Assembly: GCA_016928315.1 (NCBI GenBank)
Contig: JAFGKZ010000002.1
Span: forward strand, 1-34,313
DNA: 34,313 bases
Reading direction: 5' to 3'
Source of the DNA: Calditrichaceae bacterium
Lineage (GTDB): Bacteria > Calditrichota > Calditrichia > Calditrichales > Calditrichaceae
A program made the position numbers and the translations under genes. The notes beneath the pieces were generated by a model. It was not told the origin of the DNA. It saw only the letters and a program-made list of their open reading frames with translations, and ran no database searches. Positions 3,984 through 24,913 of the stretch are shown in pieces (the first letter of the stretch is position 1; each line of letters starts with the position of its first letter).

Positions 3984-4841
3984 ATGAAAAAACCTATTGG
4001 TATATTTGATTCTGGTATTGGCGGGCTTACCGTCGTCAAACAGTTGATGCATTTATTGCCCAACGAACAACTAATTTATTTTGGTGATACGGCGCGTATT
4101 CCTTATGGTACAAAATCAAAAAGGCTCATTGAGCGGTATGCTGTCGAAGATGCAAAATTTTTACTCCAGTACGATATTAAAGCGCTGGTGGTTGCCTGTA
4201 ATACGGCATCATCCCTGGCCATGGATGTTCTTCTGAATTCTCTTGATGTTCCGGTAATTGGTGTAGTTATACCCGGCGCTGAAGCAGCAGTTAAGTTAAC
4301 CTGCAATAATAAAATAGGAGTGATTGGTACAATCGCAACCATTAACAGTAAATCCTATACGCTGCAGATTCAAAAACGGCTCAGTGAAGCGCAAGTATTT
4401 GGTCAGGCCTGTCCGCTGTTAGTGCCATTGGTTGAAGAAGGCTGGCTGGATGATGAAGTGACGATTTTGACACTAAAGAAATATTTACCGGAAATGATCA
4501 AAGAACAGGTTGATACGCTGATTTTAGGTTGTACGCACTATCCTCTTTTGGAAAAAACAATTCAAAAAATTATGGGTGATCATGTCAGGTTAATCGATTC
4601 CGGTAAAGAAACGGCAAAAGCGGTAAAACAGGTCTTGATAGAAAACAATTTAATAAACCGGTCTGATAAACCGGGACCGGATAAATTTTTTGTGAGCGAC
4701 ATTCCGATGAAATTTGAAGAAATAGGATCGCGTTTCTTAGGTAAGACACTGGATAATGTAGAACGCGTTGATTTTGAACGCTTTCTTGTTAAACTGGAGC
4801 CCGGCAGAATGAACAATTTGAGAAGTAACATTGAGGTGTAA
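3984..4841 (+). CDS. murI: Glutamate racemase
   Basis: Converts L-glutamate to D-glutamate for the peptidoglycan stem peptide, in the cytoplasm and without a cofactor. The 285 residues match family length. All signature elements are present: FDSGIGGLTV with D9 and S10, the first catalytic cysteine C72 in VVACNTAS, and the second, C183, in LGCTHYPLL with H185 beside it. The ATG lies two bases after the amidase stop with no Shine-Dalgarno sequence, so translation is probably coupled to the upstream gene. The linkage of a racemase that feeds wall synthesis to an amidase that remodels the wall is functionally sensible. Its 3' end carries the ribosome site (GAGGTG) of the next gene. Confidence 0.97.
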   Translation: MKKPIGIFDSGIGGLTVVKQLMHLLPNEQLIYFGDTARIPYGTKSKRLIERYAVEDAKFLLQYDIKALVVACNTASSLAMDVLLNSLDVPVIGVVIPGAEAAVKLTCNNKIGVIGTIATINSKSYTLQIQKRLSEAQVFGQACPLLVPLVEEGWLDDEVTILTLKKYLPEMIKEQVDTLILGCTHYPLLEKTIQKIMGDHVRLIDSGKETAKAVKQVLIENNLINRSDKPGPDKFFVSDIPMKFEEIGSRFLGKTLDNVERVDFERFLVKLEPGRMNNLRSNIEV

Positions 4842-4842
4842 G

Positions 4843-5793
4843 ATGAGATTTATTCATTATTTATGTATTATATTTCTGTTAATATCAATATCTGTGGCTC
4901 AACATGACATGACCAGCGCCTTTGAATTTTTACGAATCGATTTTAATCCCCGCACATCAGCTACATCCAATGCTTTTATGTCCCTCACAAATGACGTCAG
5001 CGCTATGTATGTTAATCCTGCAGGAATGTCGTTTATCAATCAGGATCAGTTTGCTATAAATTACACGAATCACATTCTGGATATTAATGGCGGTATGGCT
5101 GCTTTTGCGCGAAATTTTCCCAAATATGGTGTGTTAAGCGTTGGTATTTTATATATGGATTATGGTGAATTTGAAGAAACCGATGATCATGCCCAAACGC
5201 TGGGGCGCCAATTTGGCGCCAATGATTTTGCCCTGGGTTTTGGTATTGCCAACCATCTGGATGAGTATTTTTCTTATGGTGTAAATATGAAATATGCCTT
5301 TTCTAAGCTGGAAAGTTATAATGCTTCAGCTATTGCCTTTGATTTTGGTTTACACTGGGCGGTGCCTTATGCGGATGATCTTTCCGCTTCTGTCACGCTG
5401 ATGAATATCGGTCGTCAATTTGATTATTACAATGATAGAAAAGAGACACTGCCGGTTAATCTTAGAATGGGTGTTTCAAAAAAACTGGCTCACCTGCCGC
5501 TGGAAATCGCCGTGAGTTTAAATGATATGAACATAGATGCCAATGACGCTGTGGATATAATCAAACGGTTTTCTATCGGCGGGGAGTTTACGCTGAGCGA
5601 AAAATTACGTGTACGTTTGGGTTATGATAACGATTTACATAGCGATGTGGAATCTACGGATGATTATCGTTTCGGCGGTATATCGGCAGGATTTGGTTTT
5701 TATTTTAAGAAATTTAGAATTGATTATGCCTATTCTAACTACGGCGCCCTGGGAGGAATCAGTCGGTTTGGATTATTTGGCGTCCTGGATTAG
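4843..5793 (+). CDS. PorV/PorQ-family outer-membrane beta-barrel protein
   Basis: Probable outer-membrane barrel related to the PorV/PorQ proteins of the type IX secretion system. With the ATG at 4843 the protein has 316 residues and begins with a clear signal peptide (MRFIHYLCIIFLLISISVAQ). I prefer this start over an in-frame TTG at 4831 because GAGGTG sits 4 bases before the ATG and because the TTG start would put charged residues ahead of the signal. After the signal comes the family hallmark: FEFLRIDFNPRTSA, then NDVSAMYVNPAGM. The rest is alternating amphipathic strands rich in Gly, Tyr and Phe, ending in a typical aromatic final strand. No other secretion-system gene is in the window, so a role as a general surface-protein shuttle or porin-like protein is equally possible. 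Confidence 0.8.
   Translation: MRFIHYLCIIFLLISISVAQHDMTSAFEFLRIDFNPRTSATSNAFMSLTNDVSAMYVNPAGMSFINQDQFAINYTNHILDINGGMAAFARNFPKYGVLSVGILYMDYGEFEETDDHAQTLGRQFGANDFALGFGIANHLDEYFSYGVNMKYAFSKLESYNASAIAFDFGLHWAVPYADDLSASVTLMNIGRQFDYYNDRKETLPVNLRMGVSKKLAHLPLEIAVSLNDMNIDANDAVDIIKRFSIGGEFTLSEKLRVRLGYDNDLHSDVESTDDYRFGGISAGFGFYFKKFRIDYAYSNYGALGGISRFGLFGVLD
5204..5220. repeat. 17-bp perfect palindrome inside the PorV-like gene
   Basis: GGCGCCAA-T-TTGGCGCC, with 8-bp arms and a one-base centre, lies within the codons for GRQFGAN. It is GC-rich in an AT-rich region. It may be chance codon use (GGCGCC recurs in this genome's Gly-Ala codons) or a short mRNA hairpin. Confidence 0.5.
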
Positions 5794-6857: not shown

Positions 6858-7958
6858 ATGAATAAAAAGTTTTCGTTGGAAGCTCTGCTGGGATTATATT
6901 CTATTCCCACAATCGGGCCTTCGCGCATGCGGAAGCTGATTTCCATTTTTAATTCGCCGGAAGCTGTACTGGATGCGAGCGCACGGCAGCTGAAGGAAAT
7001 TGAAGGGATTGATCAGAAAACAATCTCTCGCATTAAAGCCGGACCTAATGAGGATTTTGTTCAAACCCAATTGAGTACGATGGAAGAACATCAGGTCCAA
7101 ATTTTAACCTATTGGGATAAAAACTATCCGACGCGGCTAAAAAAAATTTACGATCCTCCCGCGTTTTTATTTTATAAAGGCAATACAAAATTTCTTACGG
7201 ATCCGGCGATTGGTATTGTTGGTACGCGGGTTCCCTCCAGTTATGGTAAATTGGTTACAGAACGACTTACGGCGGAGCTGGTAGAAAATAACTTTGCCAT
7301 TATAAGCGGTTTTGCCCGCGGCATTGATACAATCGCTCATACGACAGCGCTTAAAAATAATGGCACGACCCTGGCCGTTCTTGGAAATGGGATTGATCTG
7401 GTCTATCCGGCTGAAAATAAAAAATTGTTCAATGAGATGGTTGAACATGGATTAATTATTACAGAGTACCCGATGGGCACCAATCCGGACAGCGGTAATT
7501 TCCCCAAGCGTAACCGCATTATCAGCGGAATCAGCGTAGGCGTTTTGATCCCCGAAGCGGGCGCCCGCAGCGGTGCTCTGATCACTGCCTTATATGCTGT
7601 GGATCAGAATCGGGAAGTGTTTTGCGTGCCGGGACCGATTACATCAGGTAAAAGCGCCGGCGTAAATAAATTGATTAAAGACGGGGCTAAACTTGTTTTG
7701 GGCATCGATGATATTTTAAGCGAACTCAATCAGCAGCTCAATTTGAATTTTGAAAAAAAAGCACAGGATGTAAAAGAACTGAATCTCAGCGGTAATTACA
7801 AATTGATTTATGAAATATTAAATCATGAGCCAATCCATGTAGATCAGCTCGCCTTTAAAGCCAATTTATCGCCTGCGGAAACGCTAAGCGCCCTGCTAAC
7901 GCTGGAATTGATGGGTGTAATTCGTCAAATGGCAGGCAAGATGTTTATTAAATTATAA
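6858..7958 (+). CDS. dprA: DNA-processing protein DprA
   Basis: Protects incoming single-stranded DNA and loads RecA during natural transformation; widely conserved even where competence is unproven. The 366-residue protein has all three usual parts. An N-terminal helix-hairpin-helix/SAM-like region covers about 5-65. The Rossmann-like core contains GTRVPSSYG (122-130), SGFARGID (150-157), NGIDLVYP and FPKRNRIIS (215-223). A C-terminal winged-helix domain covers about 305-366. The ATG directly abuts the obgE stop (TAAATG), so coupled translation is likely. No other competence gene is in the window. A 371-bp gap follows with no strong terminator. Confidence 0.96.
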   Translation: MNKKFSLEALLGLYSIPTIGPSRMRKLISIFNSPEAVLDASARQLKEIEGIDQKTISRIKAGPNEDFVQTQLSTMEEHQVQILTYWDKNYPTRLKKIYDPPAFLFYKGNTKFLTDPAIGIVGTRVPSSYGKLVTERLTAELVENNFAIISGFARGIDTIAHTTALKNNGTTLAVLGNGIDLVYPAENKKLFNEMVEHGLIITEYPMGTNPDSGNFPKRNRIISGISVGVLIPEAGARSGALITALYAVDQNREVFCVPGPITSGKSAGVNKLIKDGAKLVLGIDDILSELNQQLNLNFEKKAQDVKELNLSGNYKLIYEILNHEPIHVDQLAFKANLSPAETLSALLTLELMGVIRQMAGKMFIKL

Positions 7959-8046
7959 TTCTAATTCTAAATAGTATCCGTTATAGGAAATTTAAATCCG
8001 AAAAATAATAACAGGATTTAATTACAATTAGCATATAAACGTCAAC

Positions 8047-8061
8047 CTGAACCAAGTTCAG
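8047..8061. repeat. Short REP-like palindrome (CTGAAC-caa-GTTCAG)
   Basis: Perfect 6-bp arms around a 3-base loop. The minus-strand reading CTGAACTTGGTTCAG resembles the short intergenic palindromes (CTGAACTTG-type) that I recall being scattered through Bacteroidota-group genomes. Only one copy is seen in this window. Confidence 0.35.
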
Positions 8062-8215
8062 TGATACGCAGCCCCGATTTTTAGTTACTGTATTTATTTT
8101 TTTATTAATTTCAAATCATATTTTAACTATACATATTTTTTATTCTTAAAAAAAAGAGTTCTTCTGCATTATTAATATCACTAAGGATAGCGCCGATAAT
8201 CCCTAAAACGCGCTG

Positions 8216-8244
8216 TCAAAACATGCCATTAAGTGTTGTTTTGA
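8216..8244. repeat. 8-bp inverted repeat with 13-base spacer
   Basis: TCAAAACA (8216-8223) and TGTTTTGA (8237-8244) are exact inverted copies about 90-110 bases before nfnA. No T-tract follows, so it is not a classic terminator; it could be an operator or a leader-RNA stem. Confidence 0.35.
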
Positions 8245-8279
8245 TCTTATGGAAATGTTAAATTTAATGGAGTGATTAT

Positions 8280-19136: not shown

Positions 19137-20651
19137 CTATTTAATCATTTCCGGTTTATACATTTTTACCAGATTTCGTCCGCTGCGCTTGGCGGCATAA
19201 AGAGCAGAATCTGCTTTATGTATCAGTTCTTTAAAGTTTTGCGCATTTTCAGGTGCGGACGCCCCGCCGACGCTGACGGTTACTTTACCGGTCGGTTGAA
19301 CCTCTTCGTGCTCAAAATAGGTTTCTTCTATTTTTTGCCGGATACGTTCGGCCAGAATATTAGCGCCTTCATGTTCAACCGCCGGCAAAATTATGGCAAA
19401 TTCTTCGCCGCCATACCGGGCGACAATATCGTTCTCACGAACGGTTTCTTTAAGAATATTAGCAATCTTTCGTAACACCTGATCGCCTTCCGGATGTCCC
19501 ATGGTATCATTGAAATTTTTAAAATTGTCAACATCCAAAATTAAAAGCGACAATGGGTTTTTTGTACGCTTATGACGCATAACTTCTTCCTTGAGACGTA
19601 GTTCAAAATATCGATAGTTATGCAAATCCGTCATGCCGTCGGTGTAGGATAACTGCTCAATCTCTTCATATAGGGATGCATTTGAAACGGCAATAGATAC
19701 GATATTACTCAGGATGGATATATGTTCAAATTCCCGTTTCTCATAACCCTTTTCTTTAATTCGTGGTCCCAGACATATAAAACCTTCAACAAAATCCTGT
19801 ATTGTAATCGGAGTAATAATCTCCACATCCAATGCGCTTAATTGTTTTGCAGCGCTTGATTTTGGTATCCGTTTATTCAAGTCTTTCAATGGATAGGGCA
19901 TAGGATGAAGTTTAAAATATGAAACCAGCGGATCGGATTTATCGATGTATAAATCTTTTACATCCTTCTGATGATAGCCTTTATGATTAATGATTTCCAA
20001 AATATCTTTACTATGTTTGCTGACCAGTAAAAATAAGGCTGATTTACAGGAAAACTGTCCAATCATCGTTAATAGAGTTGAATTAATCAGACGGTTCAAC
20101 TCAAGGATCGAATTAAGTTCCCACGATATTTCAAATAAATTGTGCAGACTGAACAGATTTTTTCGTAAATCTTTGTTTTTATCCACCAGGTTTTCATTTA
20201 ATGTGATAATTTTTAAATTGGCGGCTTCCAGATCGCGTGATTGTTTTACAAGCAGTTCATTGAGGCGTTTAATTCTGAGCGCAGAATTAATTCGTGCAGC
20301 CAGCTCTTCAAAATTGAATGGTTTTACCACGTAATCATCGGCACCAATTTCCAGGCCTGTAACAATGTCATCAGTATTGGTTTTAGCTGTTAGCATAATA
20401 ATTGGCGTGTAAGCTTTATCGCTATGATTTTGGCGGATTATTTTTGTCGCTTCCAACCCGGACATGCCCGGCAGCATTAAATCCATTAATATAATATCCG
20501 GTTGGTTTTCATCAAATAGTTCCAGACCAATTTCTGCATTGTCGGCTGTTGTTACCTGGTAAGAACGCTCTTCCAAAAATCGTTTGAGGACGGACTGCAT
20601 GTCCTGCTGATCTTCAATTATAAGCACTTTATGAAAAACATTTTTAGCCAT
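19137..20651 (-). CDS. Response regulator with GAF-like region and GGDEF diguanylate cyclase domain
   Basis: Cytoplasmic signalling protein, probably making cyclic di-GMP when phosphorylated. Domains in order are: a receiver (8-125) with the acidic pair E13-D14, phospho-acceptor D57 in LMDLMLPG, T88 and K110; a coiled-coil linker (about 128-170); a GAF-like sensor (about 175-325); and a GGDEF domain (335-500). The active motif is GGEEF (414-418), preceded by the RxxD inhibitory site R405-END408, so an active, product-inhibited cyclase is predicted. The cognate histidine kinase is not in the window. It is 504 residues long. The gene diverges from the lipoprotein gene across 138 bp and is followed after one base by bshA, an unusual pairing of c-di-GMP signalling with thiol synthesis. 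Confidence 0.92.
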   Translation of the reverse strand: MAKNVFHKVLIIEDQQDMQSVLKRFLEERSYQVTTADNAEIGLELFDENQPDIILMDLMLPGMSGLEATKIIRQNHSDKAYTPIIMLTAKTNTDDIVTGLEIGADDYVVKPFNFEELAARINSALRIKRLNELLVKQSRDLEAANLKIITLNENLVDKNKDLRKNLFSLHNLFEISWELNSILELNRLINSTLLTMIGQFSCKSALFLLVSKHSKDILEIINHKGYHQKDVKDLYIDKSDPLVSYFKLHPMPYPLKDLNKRIPKSSAAKQLSALDVEIITPITIQDFVEGFICLGPRIKEKGYEKREFEHISILSNIVSIAVSNASLYEEIEQLSYTDGMTDLHNYRYFELRLKEEVMRHKRTKNPLSLLILDVDNFKNFNDTMGHPEGDQVLRKIANILKETVRENDIVARYGGEEFAIILPAVEHEGANILAERIRQKIEETYFEHEEVQPTGKVTVSVGGASAPENAQNFKELIHKADSALYAAKRSGRNLVKMYKPEMIK

Positions 20652-20789: not shown

Positions 20790-21248
20790 GTGAGAATTAT
20801 CAAGTATTTTAGATTTCTAATTTTTTTTGGAATAATTATCGGATTATTCTATCTGATATCATGCAGCGAAGGCACTAATCCCAATGATAAAAAATTTGTT
20901 TTACCGGAAAAAGATTTGAGTTTTTATGAGCATATTGAACCGCTGTTTAACATAAGATGCGGTATGGAATCCGGCTGTCATTCTCCAACAGATATATCAA
21001 ATCCATTTACATATAATGATTTGACTATTCTTGAGGCATTAAAAAATTACCGGTTGTCCAATAACGATTATCGGTTAATAGAATTAGAAGTCGATCAATT
21101 GAATCCACAATCTTCAATTCTATATCTGATATTGTCTGAAGGATTTCCAGATTATAAGGATTTGATGCCGCCATTCCCCAAGGACAGACTCACCACGAAT
21201 CAACTCAATGGTATTAAACAATGGATCCGCGAGGGCGCGCCTGAGTAA
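20790..21248 (+). CDS. Lipoprotein with cytochrome-c-like CX5CH motif
   Basis: Predicted exported lipoprotein of 152 residues. A hydrophobic N-terminal segment ends in LISC, so C25 is the likely lipidated cysteine. The mature part has C57-GMESG-C63-H64, a haem-binding-like motif with five residues between the cysteines instead of the usual two. A possible distal ligand is M126 in DLMPPFP. The C-terminal pattern LTTNQLNGIKQWIREGAPE is the ending I know from small cytochrome-c-like domains of the FCB group and planctomycetes (MPP...L...Q...I..WI..GA). Function is probably electron transfer or a degenerate binding domain. The GTG at 20790 is preceded by GAGGTGGAG, which decides the start. It converges with the 919-residue gene, with 14 bases between stops and no terminator. 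Confidence 0.7.
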   Translation: MRIIKYFRFLIFFGIIIGLFYLISCSEGTNPNDKKFVLPEKDLSFYEHIEPLFNIRCGMESGCHSPTDISNPFTYNDLTILEALKNYRLSNNDYRLIELEVDQLNPQSSILYLILSEGFPDYKDLMPPFPKDRLTTNQLNGIKQWIREGAPE

Positions 21249-21262
21249 GCCTGTTGTTTTTG

Positions 21263-24022
21263 TTAATTCTCTAAAGTGACCAGATTGTAGGGAATAATCC
21301 GTACCGGCCCCAAAAGGCCGTAAGACTGCACAAAATAATTGGCAGGTTTGAATTTGTTATTTTCCGCCAACATATTGGATAAACGGTTGGCTATTTGAAT
21401 ACTGATTTTATTTTCACCCGCTTTCATAAATTTACTGACGTCAAATATCCATGGTGCAAAGATACGTCTTCCAACATATTCGTTGTTAATTGACAAGGTG
21501 CACCAATCGTGAAGCTGACCCAAATCCAGAAATAATTTCTGTTTATTTAAATAGTCTTTTTTGAGTACAATGAGCTTGTGATAGGTTAACACAGCGCTTT
21601 GATATGGAAACGGATAACTCTGATCGCCAAGGCTCACCTGCCCCTTAAAATGATCGCTGTCCAGATACCAGCCGCTGTTTCCGATGGATAACATGGGCAG
21701 TTTTTCTTTAATTTTATAATCGAGTTGCTTTTGTCCGCCAGCCTTTTGGATAATTATACTAAAGGAACCCTCTTTTCTCTGCCATCCATCCATTTTAAAC
21801 TTCTGCTCATCCTGCTGTATAATTTTATAACCATCCAATGAAGAATCATAAAGCTGGAATATTTTCAATGAATGTTTTTTATCAATCACAAATAAACGTG
21901 TTTCGCCTGGCGCCAGCCTGAGTCTCATAATTAATTTTTTGTCCCTGATGTACCAATCTGCATAGGGGTGAGATTCCGCCGTATTAAAATCCCAGCAATA
22001 AGGCCGTCCTAAATATTTAGACTCAATATTGAAATGCGTGGTTTTAAACTGGTCTGTATTCATGACCAGCAGGTAGTAGTTTTCCTGATGCTCCCGCAGT
22101 TGATAAACAATGCCCGGATTTGAGGATTTAATATGAATACGCAGATTCTTATCAAGATCAGTGAGTATATTTCTGAGGCGGGAAATACTTTTCTGAAAAT
22201 ATCCTAATCCTCCCGATTCGTGCTGTTTAAACAGGGTGCTTTGTGTATCAGATACATCCGGCCAAATTTCTTTTTTAATTTGTTTTAGCAGGGTATCTTT
22301 TTTACCGTCGCGGGTGTGAGCAGGCAGCCGGCCTAATGCCAGTACAATACCTCCTTCAGTGAAAAATTTATTTATTTTTTGCATACATTCAATCGGGATA
22401 TTTAAAATAGCGGGAAGTATTAAAATACGATAATTATGATTGAATAAAATAAAATTACCATCTTCAACAGGACAAACAAAATGGTCATTAAAGGTGTCAA
22501 AATCAATAATATGATAATCCAGACCTGTATATTTTAATTCATTTATCGTTCGTTCAAATAGTTCCAGGTCTTCATCGGAACCCGGATAAAGCAGCAGGGC
22601 TTCCGGTCGGCGAATACCCAATTTCATAAAGTGCCCCAGTTGATGCAGGTAGGCAAACCAATCAGAATAGGCTGAGAAATTGGGATCCCAGTTATTTATG
22701 GCCGCCAAAGGTTTTTCTTTATTTTCAAAAATATCCCCGGAAATACTAAAGTTAAAATGGTTAATCCCCGTTACAGTTAAATAATCAATAATATACTTTT
22801 TATCGTTAAAAGAATGTCTGGTATTTAAAATATGATCAATGGATGCCTGTATTTTGCAGTCGTTGGTTTTGTTGACAGCATTGACCAGTTTCCTGATAGT
22901 TATACAGGTATTTAAGGTATATTTTGTTTCCGGTAAAAATCGGTCCATTTCAATGCGGACTACAACTGGTACGGAATTGAGTAGTTGTTTGCTTAATGGG
23001 TGGTCCACATCGATGAATAGTTGATCTTTTTTCTTATGATTAAACTGGGATAAAAATTGTTCACGCATATAATCCGAATAAAGGTTGACCAGTTCCAGAT
23101 TAGCTTTATTACTCTCGGGGTGAGCGGCCATGTATTTTTTTAAGGTTAAATCCAGTATGGGCTGATTGGTAATGAGTTGTGATTGCTTTTCCTTTGTATA
23201 AATCAGATTTGGTAAAAAATCAAAATTCATCCCCGGTAATAATACATTCAAATCAAATATGGTATCCACTTCCGTGATACCCATTTCAATTATCTTTTGC
23301 TGATGTTTTTCACACGCCAGATTAAAGTTTTTTGGATTAACAAAATTTAGCCAATATTGCGGTCTATTGTTAAATACAACTTTACAGGTTCTCAGTACTA
23401 TTATTTTTGATGATTTTTCTCTGTGGGCTTTCAGCTTCAGAATACCCCGCTCAGCATCCAGTTTGCTCAATATGTCGCTGCAGTTTTTTACTTGAAATTC
23501 TTCAGAGTCAGAATAACGCCATTGGAAAATGGCAATTACATCTTCAGGATATTTAATTTCTGCTTCAAAAAATTTGTCTCCGGGATGTATCGTATAAATT
23601 TCCGGTTCATAACCATAGAAATAAAAGACATCTTCTCCCCATACCTTTTGCCGCTTATGATACAAATTTGTGCAGAATAATTTTGTCTGAAATAAACGAT
23701 CCAGATGATCCCGGTTAGTGTGAATAAAATTTTCTTCATTTATATGTAAGTTCAGGGCAATCTTAATATCTTTTAAATGAGATTTATTTGCAGTGTTCTG
23801 ATAAAAGTTTATAAGCGGGATAATAGATTCGATATGTTCAAACAAATACAACTCCTGGATGCACCAATCGTTCAATAGTTTAAATAATCTATTAATATCT
23901 GACTTTTCTGATAACTGCAGATTGATTCCACTAACAGAAATTGATGGATTAATACCAAGCAGATCCATGTTCTTTAAATAAAGCTCAAGACGGGACATTT
24001 TATTGCTGGCTGTTTTATTCAT
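21263..24022 (-). CDS. Large glycoside-hydrolase-like protein (GH106/GH2-like architecture), no signal peptide
   Basis: A 919-residue protein I recognise only by architecture. The N-terminal third (1-330) has weak barrel/sandwich features. Residues about 405-460 (IIDYLTVTGINHFNFSISGD, then AYSDWFAYLHQLGHFM) resemble the end of the catalytic barrel in GH106-type rhamnosidases. Residues about 470-570 look like the Rossmann/glutaminase-like domain of such enzymes (EALLLYPGSDEDL, YRILILPAIL, FFTEGGIVLALG). The C-terminal 130 residues are a carbohydrate-binding jelly roll (LSINNEYVGRRIFAPWIFDVSKFMKAGENKISIQIAN... YGLLGPVRI). No signal peptide is visible at either possible start (ATG 24022 or the internal Met9), so it would act in the cytoplasm or be inactive. 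I cannot place confident catalytic acids. No sugar transporter or other carbohydrate gene is nearby. Confidence 0.6.
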   Translation of the reverse strand: MNKTASNKMSRLELYLKNMDLLGINPSISVSGINLQLSEKSDINRLFKLLNDWCIQELYLFEHIESIIPLINFYQNTANKSHLKDIKIALNLHINEENFIHTNRDHLDRLFQTKLFCTNLYHKRQKVWGEDVFYFYGYEPEIYTIHPGDKFFEAEIKYPEDVIAIFQWRYSDSEEFQVKNCSDILSKLDAERGILKLKAHREKSSKIIVLRTCKVVFNNRPQYWLNFVNPKNFNLACEKHQQKIIEMGITEVDTIFDLNVLLPGMNFDFLPNLIYTKEKQSQLITNQPILDLTLKKYMAAHPESNKANLELVNLYSDYMREQFLSQFNHKKKDQLFIDVDHPLSKQLLNSVPVVVRIEMDRFLPETKYTLNTCITIRKLVNAVNKTNDCKIQASIDHILNTRHSFNDKKYIIDYLTVTGINHFNFSISGDIFENKEKPLAAINNWDPNFSAYSDWFAYLHQLGHFMKLGIRRPEALLLYPGSDEDLELFERTINELKYTGLDYHIIDFDTFNDHFVCPVEDGNFILFNHNYRILILPAILNIPIECMQKINKFFTEGGIVLALGRLPAHTRDGKKDTLLKQIKKEIWPDVSDTQSTLFKQHESGGLGYFQKSISRLRNILTDLDKNLRIHIKSSNPGIVYQLREHQENYYLLVMNTDQFKTTHFNIESKYLGRPYCWDFNTAESHPYADWYIRDKKLIMRLRLAPGETRLFVIDKKHSLKIFQLYDSSLDGYKIIQQDEQKFKMDGWQRKEGSFSIIIQKAGGQKQLDYKIKEKLPMLSIGNSGWYLDSDHFKGQVSLGDQSYPFPYQSAVLTYHKLIVLKKDYLNKQKLFLDLGQLHDWCTLSINNEYVGRRIFAPWIFDVSKFMKAGENKISIQIANRLSNMLAENNKFKPANYFVQSYGLLGPVRIIPYNLVTLEN

Positions 24023-24121: not shown

Positions 24122-24913
24122 ATGTACCGAAAAGAAGAAGAATTCGATTATACAAGATTTCTCTGGCTAAAAAAACGTCCGTTAAAACTCATTAAGTTTG
24201 TACTTTTAATTAGCCTGTTCCTGATACTGGGGTATGCCATTTATTTTTTCGCAAATCTGCCCGATGTTTCGTATCTGAAAAGTGAAAATCCAAAAATTAC
24301 CGCTCTAATGCAATTGCGTATCGATCAGGCAAAGGCGGAAAATAAAAAATTTAAGTTACGTCAAAAATGGGTTCGGTATCAGGCTATACCGGATCTCTTA
24401 AAAAAATCTATTCGTATATCGGAAGACGCCTCTTTTTATAAACATGACGGCATCGATTTTGAAGAGTTAAAAGAATCTCTCAAACGTAATCTTGAAGAAG
24501 GCGAACTTGCCCGCGGCGGTAGTACCATTACACAACAACTGGCGAAAAATTTATATCTTTCTACCGAAAAAAGTTTTCTCAGAAAAATTAAAGAGTATTT
24601 TATTGCAAAAAGACTGGAAAAAGAATTATCAAAATACCGGATTTTTCATTTATATTTGAATGTGATAGAATTTGGGCGCGGAGTGTTTGGCGTGGAGGCA
24701 GCCTCAAGATTTTATTTTGGCAAATCTGTTGGAAATTTAACATTGGAAGAAATGGTCCGGCTAACCGCCATTATCCCGAGACCTTTAATTACAAATCCTA
24801 AAGGCAATAGCAGATGGCTTAAATGGAAATGCAAATGGATTCTAAGAAAATTAGCCTTGTATAATTACATCGATCAGGCAGCTTGTGATGCCGCTCTTTT
24901 GTCTTTTGAATAA
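24122..24913 (+). CDS. mtgA: Monofunctional peptidoglycan glycosyltransferase (GT51)
   Basis: Inner-membrane enzyme that polymerises lipid II into glycan chains. The 263 residues start with a short basic cytoplasmic tail and one membrane helix (about 22-43), followed by a periplasmic GT51 domain. Family motifs are intact: catalytic E101 in SEDASFYKHDGID, then ARGGSTITQQLAKNLYLS (130-147), the second acidic region RLEKELSK (164-171), YLNVIEFGRGVFGVEAASRFYFGK, and LTAIIPRP. No transpeptidase domain follows, so it is not a class A penicillin-binding protein. The Shine-Dalgarno match is poor. The TamA-like gene begins 12 bases after the stop, an envelope-related pair. Confidence 0.93.
   Translation: MYRKEEEFDYTRFLWLKKRPLKLIKFVLLISLFLILGYAIYFFANLPDVSYLKSENPKITALMQLRIDQAKAENKKFKLRQKWVRYQAIPDLLKKSIRISEDASFYKHDGIDFEELKESLKRNLEEGELARGGSTITQQLAKNLYLSTEKSFLRKIKEYFIAKRLEKELSKYRIFHLYLNVIEFGRGVFGVEAASRFYFGKSVGNLTLEEMVRLTAIIPRPLITNPKGNSRWLKWKCKWILRKLALYNYIDQAACDAALLSFE

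Follow-up and report, generated by a model that had tools for sequence, protein, structure and literature searches.

GH106 rhamnosidases are the closest described counterparts of the protein analysed here, with BT_0986 (PDB 5MQM, 5MWK) and RHA-P (6Q2F) as the reference structures. According to the excerpted account of these enzymes (PMC6828813), BT_0986 has E593 as its catalytic base and E461 as its acid, and its metal ligands are D458, S459, E538 and E561. The same excerpts indicate that the base Glu also aligns in the distant, active Ram106B enzymes and that the E461-type acid is missing from some active GH106 members as well (PMC6828813). Literature listings on pseudoenzymes of GH106 and of glycoside hydrolases in general, and on GH106 and other glycoside hydrolases of Calditrichota and Caldithrix abyssi, showed no recognised description of the family reported here, for which we use the name GHL. 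We favour, at a probability of about 0.6, the reading of GHL as a pseudoenzyme of the cytoplasm that arose from the GH106 rhamnosidase fold and became a fixed core gene in Calditrichales.

The gene lies in the window, the whole stretch of 34,313 nucleotides that was analysed, which belongs to a metagenome-assembled genome (MAG) of Calditrichaceae, in the deep-branching Calditrichota, of 3.69 Mb in 291 contigs (87% complete).

21263..24022, minus strand: GHL coding sequence, 919 aa, stop included

The first-pass annotation had located this 919-residue frame correctly without giving its strand, which is added here. The frame runs from ATG to stop within an open frame of 926 aa. Only 7 in-frame codons separate the upstream stop from the ATG, which leaves no room for an overlooked longer N terminus carrying a signal peptide. 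As a measure of export potential, we took the most hydrophobic 12-residue stretch within the first 45 residues. This maximum was ≤1.69 in all 20 GHL proteins (one of them, L008, is cut by a contig end and lacks its true N terminus), compared with 2.3 to 3.5 in 9 of 10 comparison proteins, namely four lipoproteins of the neighbourhood and all but one of six GH106 proteins. The sixth GH106 protein, with a maximum of 0.86, looks cytoplasmic as well. A missed upstream signal peptide, which the first-pass annotation had named as one thing that would speak against its view, was looked for and is ruled out, as is a missed upstream start, by the open-frame length and the N-terminal hydrophobicity. GHL is thus predicted to be cytoplasmic.

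Over its C-terminal part, GHL is homologous to BT_0986, RHA-P and other GH106 proteins. Comparison by hhalign of the 20 GHL sequences with six GH106 sequences from the same class aligned 477 columns covering GHL residues 375-909 (Prob 100, E = 6e-40). The N-terminal 385 residues alone gave nothing significant against the GH106 profile (Prob <1), and residues 1-374 are not linkable to GH106 by sequence alone, in keeping with the diverged barrel region described in the first-pass annotation. The Pfam GH106 profile (PF17132) matched residues 411-685 of the window's GHL (P0001) at 24.8 bits, below its 29-bit cut-off; when whole genomes were searched, that cut-off was passed by 3 of the 20 GHL loci (G016, 43.0; G024, 38.5; G019, 37.3). 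The same PF17132 search found no GH106 in the window's own genome. The C-terminal jelly roll matched two further profiles: the GH2-type PF22666 at residues 811-892 (29 bits, above the cut-off of 27) and NF045579, which reached E ≤ 0.01 in all 20 GHL proteins and scored 43.9 on that of the window, below its cut-off of 50. In GH2 enzymes the jelly roll is N-terminal to the barrel. The PDB hits accordingly place it at about residues 45-170, whereas in GHL it is C-terminal (about 807-892).

An AlphaFold2 (AF2) model, built from 7 of the 20 GHL sequences, divides the protein as follows.

22613..23941, minus strand: predicted degenerate (beta/alpha)8 barrel, residues 28-470 (AF2 model)
23390..23602, minus strand: beta insert between barrel strands 3 and 4, residues 141-211 (AF2 model and alignment)
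22142..22612, minus strand: Rossmann-like domain, residues 471-627, approximate boundaries (hhalign, AF2 model)
21878..22141, minus strand: beta sandwich, residues 628-715, approximate boundaries (hhalign, AF2 model)
21683..21877, minus strand: extra beta domain, residues 716-780 (AF2 model and alignment)
21266..21682, minus strand: C-terminal jelly roll, residues 781-919 (profile matches)

The full-length model is of middling confidence (pLDDT 69.6, pTM 0.71). It begins with an eight-stranded barrel (strands 28-33, 57-60, 87-91, 253-257, 334-338, 353-357, 392-395 and 422-428), whose strands 3 and 4 are separated by the beta insert, and continues through a Rossmann domain and sandwiches to a jelly roll. 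The extra beta domain is present in 14 of the 20 GHL proteins and mostly missing in all six members of family f2. The fold search that had been proposed with the first-pass annotation returned the GH106 enzymes RHA-P and BT_0986 as best folds, both by Foldseek (E = 3e-28 to 7e-21; GH42 next, 4e-13) and by VIA-align (RHA-P, Z = 21.1, 699 aligned, rmsd 9.8; BT_0986, Z = 17.6, 562 aligned, rmsd 5.6; other glycosidases, Z ≤ 15.7). Both enzymes share the domain order of GHL and carry a barrel insert at the corresponding site between strands 3 and 4. GHL therefore combines the C-terminal-half homology of GH106 with its order of barrel, Rossmann domain, sandwich and jelly roll, the barrel half being taken from a model of middling confidence. 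The GH106/GH2-like layout read earlier from the sequence is borne out by the GH106 profile match at 411-685, the GH2-type jelly roll and the two best folds.

The barrel taken by itself was less specific. Its separate model (pLDDT 61.9) matched BT_0986 with Z = 15.7 (rmsd 8.1, 333 aligned), tied with beta-amylase at 15.0, and Foldseek ranked pyruvate kinases first, so that the barrel-only model is not GH106-specific. Given these matches, and since residues 1-385 lack a profile match, the barrel half is modelled as a TIM barrel, and the case for its GH106 origin is one of architecture and not of its own sequence. From the predicted structure we infer that residues 28-470 form a degenerate GH106-type barrel with a strand 3/4 insert. 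The second-best folds, GH42 and GH164, are retaining barrels with a strand-4 acid/base and a strand-7 nucleophile. They share a barrel and a Rossmann-like domain with GHL (Z about 15 to 15.6 over 470 to 500 residues) but differ in three respects: no sequence link to GHL was found, the aligned range stops near residue 715 with no matching C-terminal jelly roll, and the strand-7 position of GHL has no acid. The GH42/GH164-type nucleophile Glu is absent from GHL, with column 394 acidic in 0/20 and column 397 in 8/20.

We then compared the catalytic-site columns after aligning 16 GH106 and 20 GHL sequences together with MAFFT. One of 17 GH106 candidates, the partial L078, was left out, and n = 19 for columns in the first half because L008 lacks its N-terminal part. 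The positions concerned in the window are these.

22841..22843, minus strand: codon of S394, strand 7, column of the GH106 catalytic base (E593) (hhalign, MAFFT)
22745..22747, minus strand: codon of S426, strand 8, column of the GH106 His (MAFFT)
23252..23254, minus strand: codon of D257, strand 4, column of the GH106 Asp (D458 of BT_0986) (MAFFT)
22949..22951, minus strand: codon of E358, end of strand 6 (alignment column)

Alignment with the PDB sequence equates E593 of BT_0986 with a Glu that is invariant in the six-row GH106 profile. In the base column, all 16 GH106 sequences have Glu, whereas no GHL sequence (0/20) has an acid; the residues found instead are Ser (5), Ile (4), Leu (4), Arg (3) and, once each, Val, Ala, Gly and Gln. 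Two independent alignments (hhalign and MAFFT) place S394 at this column, inside predicted strand 7. The strand-8 His is likewise present in 16/16 GH106 and 0/20 GHL sequences. The strand-4 Asp is invariant in GH106 (16/16) and kept in 11/19 GHL proteins; the column after it is never Ser in GHL. Three residues past this Asp, the acid column (E461; column 260) has Val in the window's GHL and Asp or Glu in 5/19, a weak criterion, since some active GH106 enzymes also lack this acid. The losses of base and His, together with the partial loss of the strand-4 Asp, the missing signal peptide and an N-terminal half with no detectable sequence similarity, set GHL apart from BT_0986 and RHA-P. Ram106B-type enzymes (Thermotoga and relatives) resemble GHL in having no signal peptide and an active site unlike that of BT_0986, but by the same excerpted account they still have the base Glu and show activity on pNP-rhamnoside (PMC6828813).

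These columns bear on whether GHL might be an ordinary GH106 rhamnosidase acting on an imported or an internal glycan, its base seemingly missing through alignment error. The homology over 375-909, the fold and the strand-4 Asp kept in 11/19 would agree with such an enzyme, and cytoplasmic, signal-less active GH106 enzymes exist (PMC6828813, excerpts). Yet both alignment methods put S394 at the base column, none of the 20 sequences has Glu or Asp there, and the window's GHL falls below the Pfam GH106 cut-off. Nor was any sugar-uptake gene recognised among the window's ORFs, which were judged by eye apart from those searched for domains, as the first-pass annotation had also found none nearby. 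We regard an ordinary rhamnosidase as improbable. A full-length match to a characterised family with intact catalytic residues, which would have spoken against that annotation, was searched for and not found.

A second alternative is that GHL works as an enzyme in the cytoplasm with its catalytic residues moved to other positions, a new family of glycosidases, lyases or isomerases on the GH106 scaffold, with sites that differ by lineage. An acid at the end of strand 6 (column 358) is found in 16/20 GHL proteins (the E538 and E561 columns are unreliably aligned), and in f2 both D259 and D358 are invariant and column 397 is acidic throughout, which makes a relocated active site possible. Moreover, no polar residues of the barrel half are invariant (19/19) other than E141 and R211, one at each end of the insert. 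Against relocation, no acid at any barrel strand end is invariant across the family (19 to 20 sequences), residues such as Ser, Leu, Ile and Arg interchange freely in the base and His columns, and E141 and R211 may instead form a structural salt bridge. Measures of constraint point both ways. The barrel was the most constrained part in the single close pair with unsaturated dS (omega = 0.09; other parts, 0.29, 0.17 and 0.11) and was better conserved than the other domains in 3 of 7 pairs compared, but in deep comparisons it is among the least conserved parts (0.23 to 0.26). The strand-6 acid, the acidic columns of f2 and the low barrel omega would fit a pocket in use and leave room for a relocated activity, which we rank second, as less likely than the pseudoenzyme.

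The gene as a whole is under purifying selection. Of six pairs on which dN/dS was tried, five had saturated or undefined dS, and the remaining one gave an omega of 0.13 (NG86) or 0.165 (YN00). Mean pairwise identity by domain was 0.16 to 0.34 across the family, and the C-terminal jelly roll was the best conserved domain between members (0.34). Jelly rolls are sugar-binding modules in many enzymes. The very low identities, and the absence of GHL from a close relative that has the same gene block (G022, described below), could suggest a decaying pseudogene or a functionless translated relic. This is very improbable: none of the 20 frames has an internal stop (one copy, that of G002, is split by a contig break), omega is 0.13 and the full domain order is kept. 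The stop-free frames and the omega value also put the reading frame far outside what chance would give.

To describe the distribution of GHL, we searched 40 genomes of the class Calditrichia with a profile of 20 homologues; a search at the level of the phylum gave the same 40. Full-length GHL was found in 20 of the 40, as a single copy in each: 13/15 in family f1 (the family of the window, whose genome is included), 6/6 in f2 and 1/3 in f4. It was found in 0/16 genomes elsewhere in the class (f3, 0/4; f5, 0/7; f6, 0/5). Other profile matches in the GHL-bearing genomes covered the jelly roll or the C-terminal half only and included true GH106 proteins. Six of the homologous loci come from MAGs assigned to Calditrichaceae, Caldithrix or Calditrichota. 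In a wider set, 50 of 385 genomes matched the GHL profile at 1e-10. Ten stretches from outside the class were examined as candidate GHL, and the GH106 profile outscored the GHL profile on all ten, so none of these ten is GHL.

In a tree of the C-terminal part (quick method, midpoint root), the GHL sequences formed one clade (SH-aLRT 100) apart from the 16 GH106 sequences. Within it, f4 branches deepest, followed by f2 and f1; this order follows taxonomy and is as expected for vertical descent. These comparisons support GHL as a monophyletic, lineage-restricted and vertically inherited family. The GC content of the gene (0.359; third position, 0.365) is similar to that of its neighbours, which, with the vertical synteny and tree, rules out a horizontal island or foreign gene.

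The vertical signal extends to the chromosomal neighbourhood, in which three genes of the window recur.

20790..21248, plus strand: lipoprotein gene, convergent with GHL (context; synteny, alignment)
24122..24913, plus strand: monofunctional transglycosylase gene mtgA, divergent from GHL (context; synteny, domains)
19137..20651, minus strand: response regulator with GGDEF domain (context; synteny, domains)

Across the 20 loci, the lipoprotein gene adjoins GHL in all informative cases but one (18/19; G013 differs). On the other side stands mtgA or a PALP gene in 18/18 informative loci, and the GGDEF response regulator lies beyond the lipoprotein in 16/16. GHL keeps one chromosomal slot. Placed between a convergent and a divergent gene, it has no evident operon partner, and the genes around it point to no particular pathway. 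A functional tie to the lipoprotein is unsupported by co-occurrence, since the lipoprotein profile matches 37/40 genomes of the class, compared with 20/40 for full-length GHL. In G022 (f4; L136, contig 360, about 7958-8249), the response regulator, lipoprotein, PALP and mtgA genes stand in the same order with no GHL, and about 290 bases separate lipoprotein and PALP; this block reflects either a loss or the state before the gene arrived. A further genome, G001, has a strong lipoprotein match and no GHL, but its contig stops some 60 bases beyond the lipoprotein, at the expected GHL start, so that absence there is unsure.

Two other genes of the window merit description in their own right. The lipoprotein has a C-x5-C-H motif that is invariant in 16/16 homologues, with sub-threshold hints of cytochrome c (PSCyt1, E = 0.018 in 1/16; monohaem cytochrome c 4rlr, E = 0.35). 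It could be a c-type cytochrome with unusual spacing of the haem motif or a disulphide protein. Excerpts of a study of C. abyssi report no soluble monohaem cytochrome c (PMC5317091). An outer-membrane protein at 4831-5793 (plus strand) is PorV-like (PF19572, 28.3 bits; cut-off 27), which hints at type IX secretion in this lineage.

Taken together, the sequence comparisons indicate that (i) residues 375-909 are homologous to GH106; (ii) the base and the strand-8 His were lost in every member; and (iii) the gene, which encodes no export signal, has been under purifying selection and inherited vertically in one slot. Among the readings offered in the first-pass annotation, a new family (monophyletic and lineage-restricted), a pseudoenzyme (base in 0/20) and a cytoplasmic location hold up, whereas a cytoplasmic enzyme acting by GH106 chemistry does not. 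Having lost its catalytic residue and seeming to stay inside the cell, GHL has probably been put to another use. As a pseudoenzyme, GHL would bind a cytoplasmic ligand without cleaving it, at a barrel mouth with the part-retained strand-4 and strand-6 acids and the invariant E141 and R211; the predicted ligand is most likely a sugar or a glycoconjugate precursor. The Rossmann domain, sandwich and jelly roll would then serve as oligomerisation and docking parts, and the protein might act as a sensor or scaffold. A more doubtful variant is that the barrel was rebuilt around E141/R211, giving either a new activity or a sensor of sugar precursors linked to the adjoining envelope genes (mtgA and a nearby Omp85), its pocket re-tuned in each lineage.

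GHL is a new form of the GH106 fold, confined to one lineage and lacking GH106 chemistry. Proteins of this type are easily annotated, on the strength of the jelly roll alone, as rhamnosidases or glycosyl hydrolases, and the present case corrects that likely error. As a pseudoenzyme, GHL would be an instance of a glycoside hydrolase family yielding a vertically inherited, single-copy cytoplasmic gene in which the fold is kept and the defining catalytic residue is lost. Its 20 sequences in one chromosomal slot would provide a defined set for asking what a dead glycosidase does in the cell.
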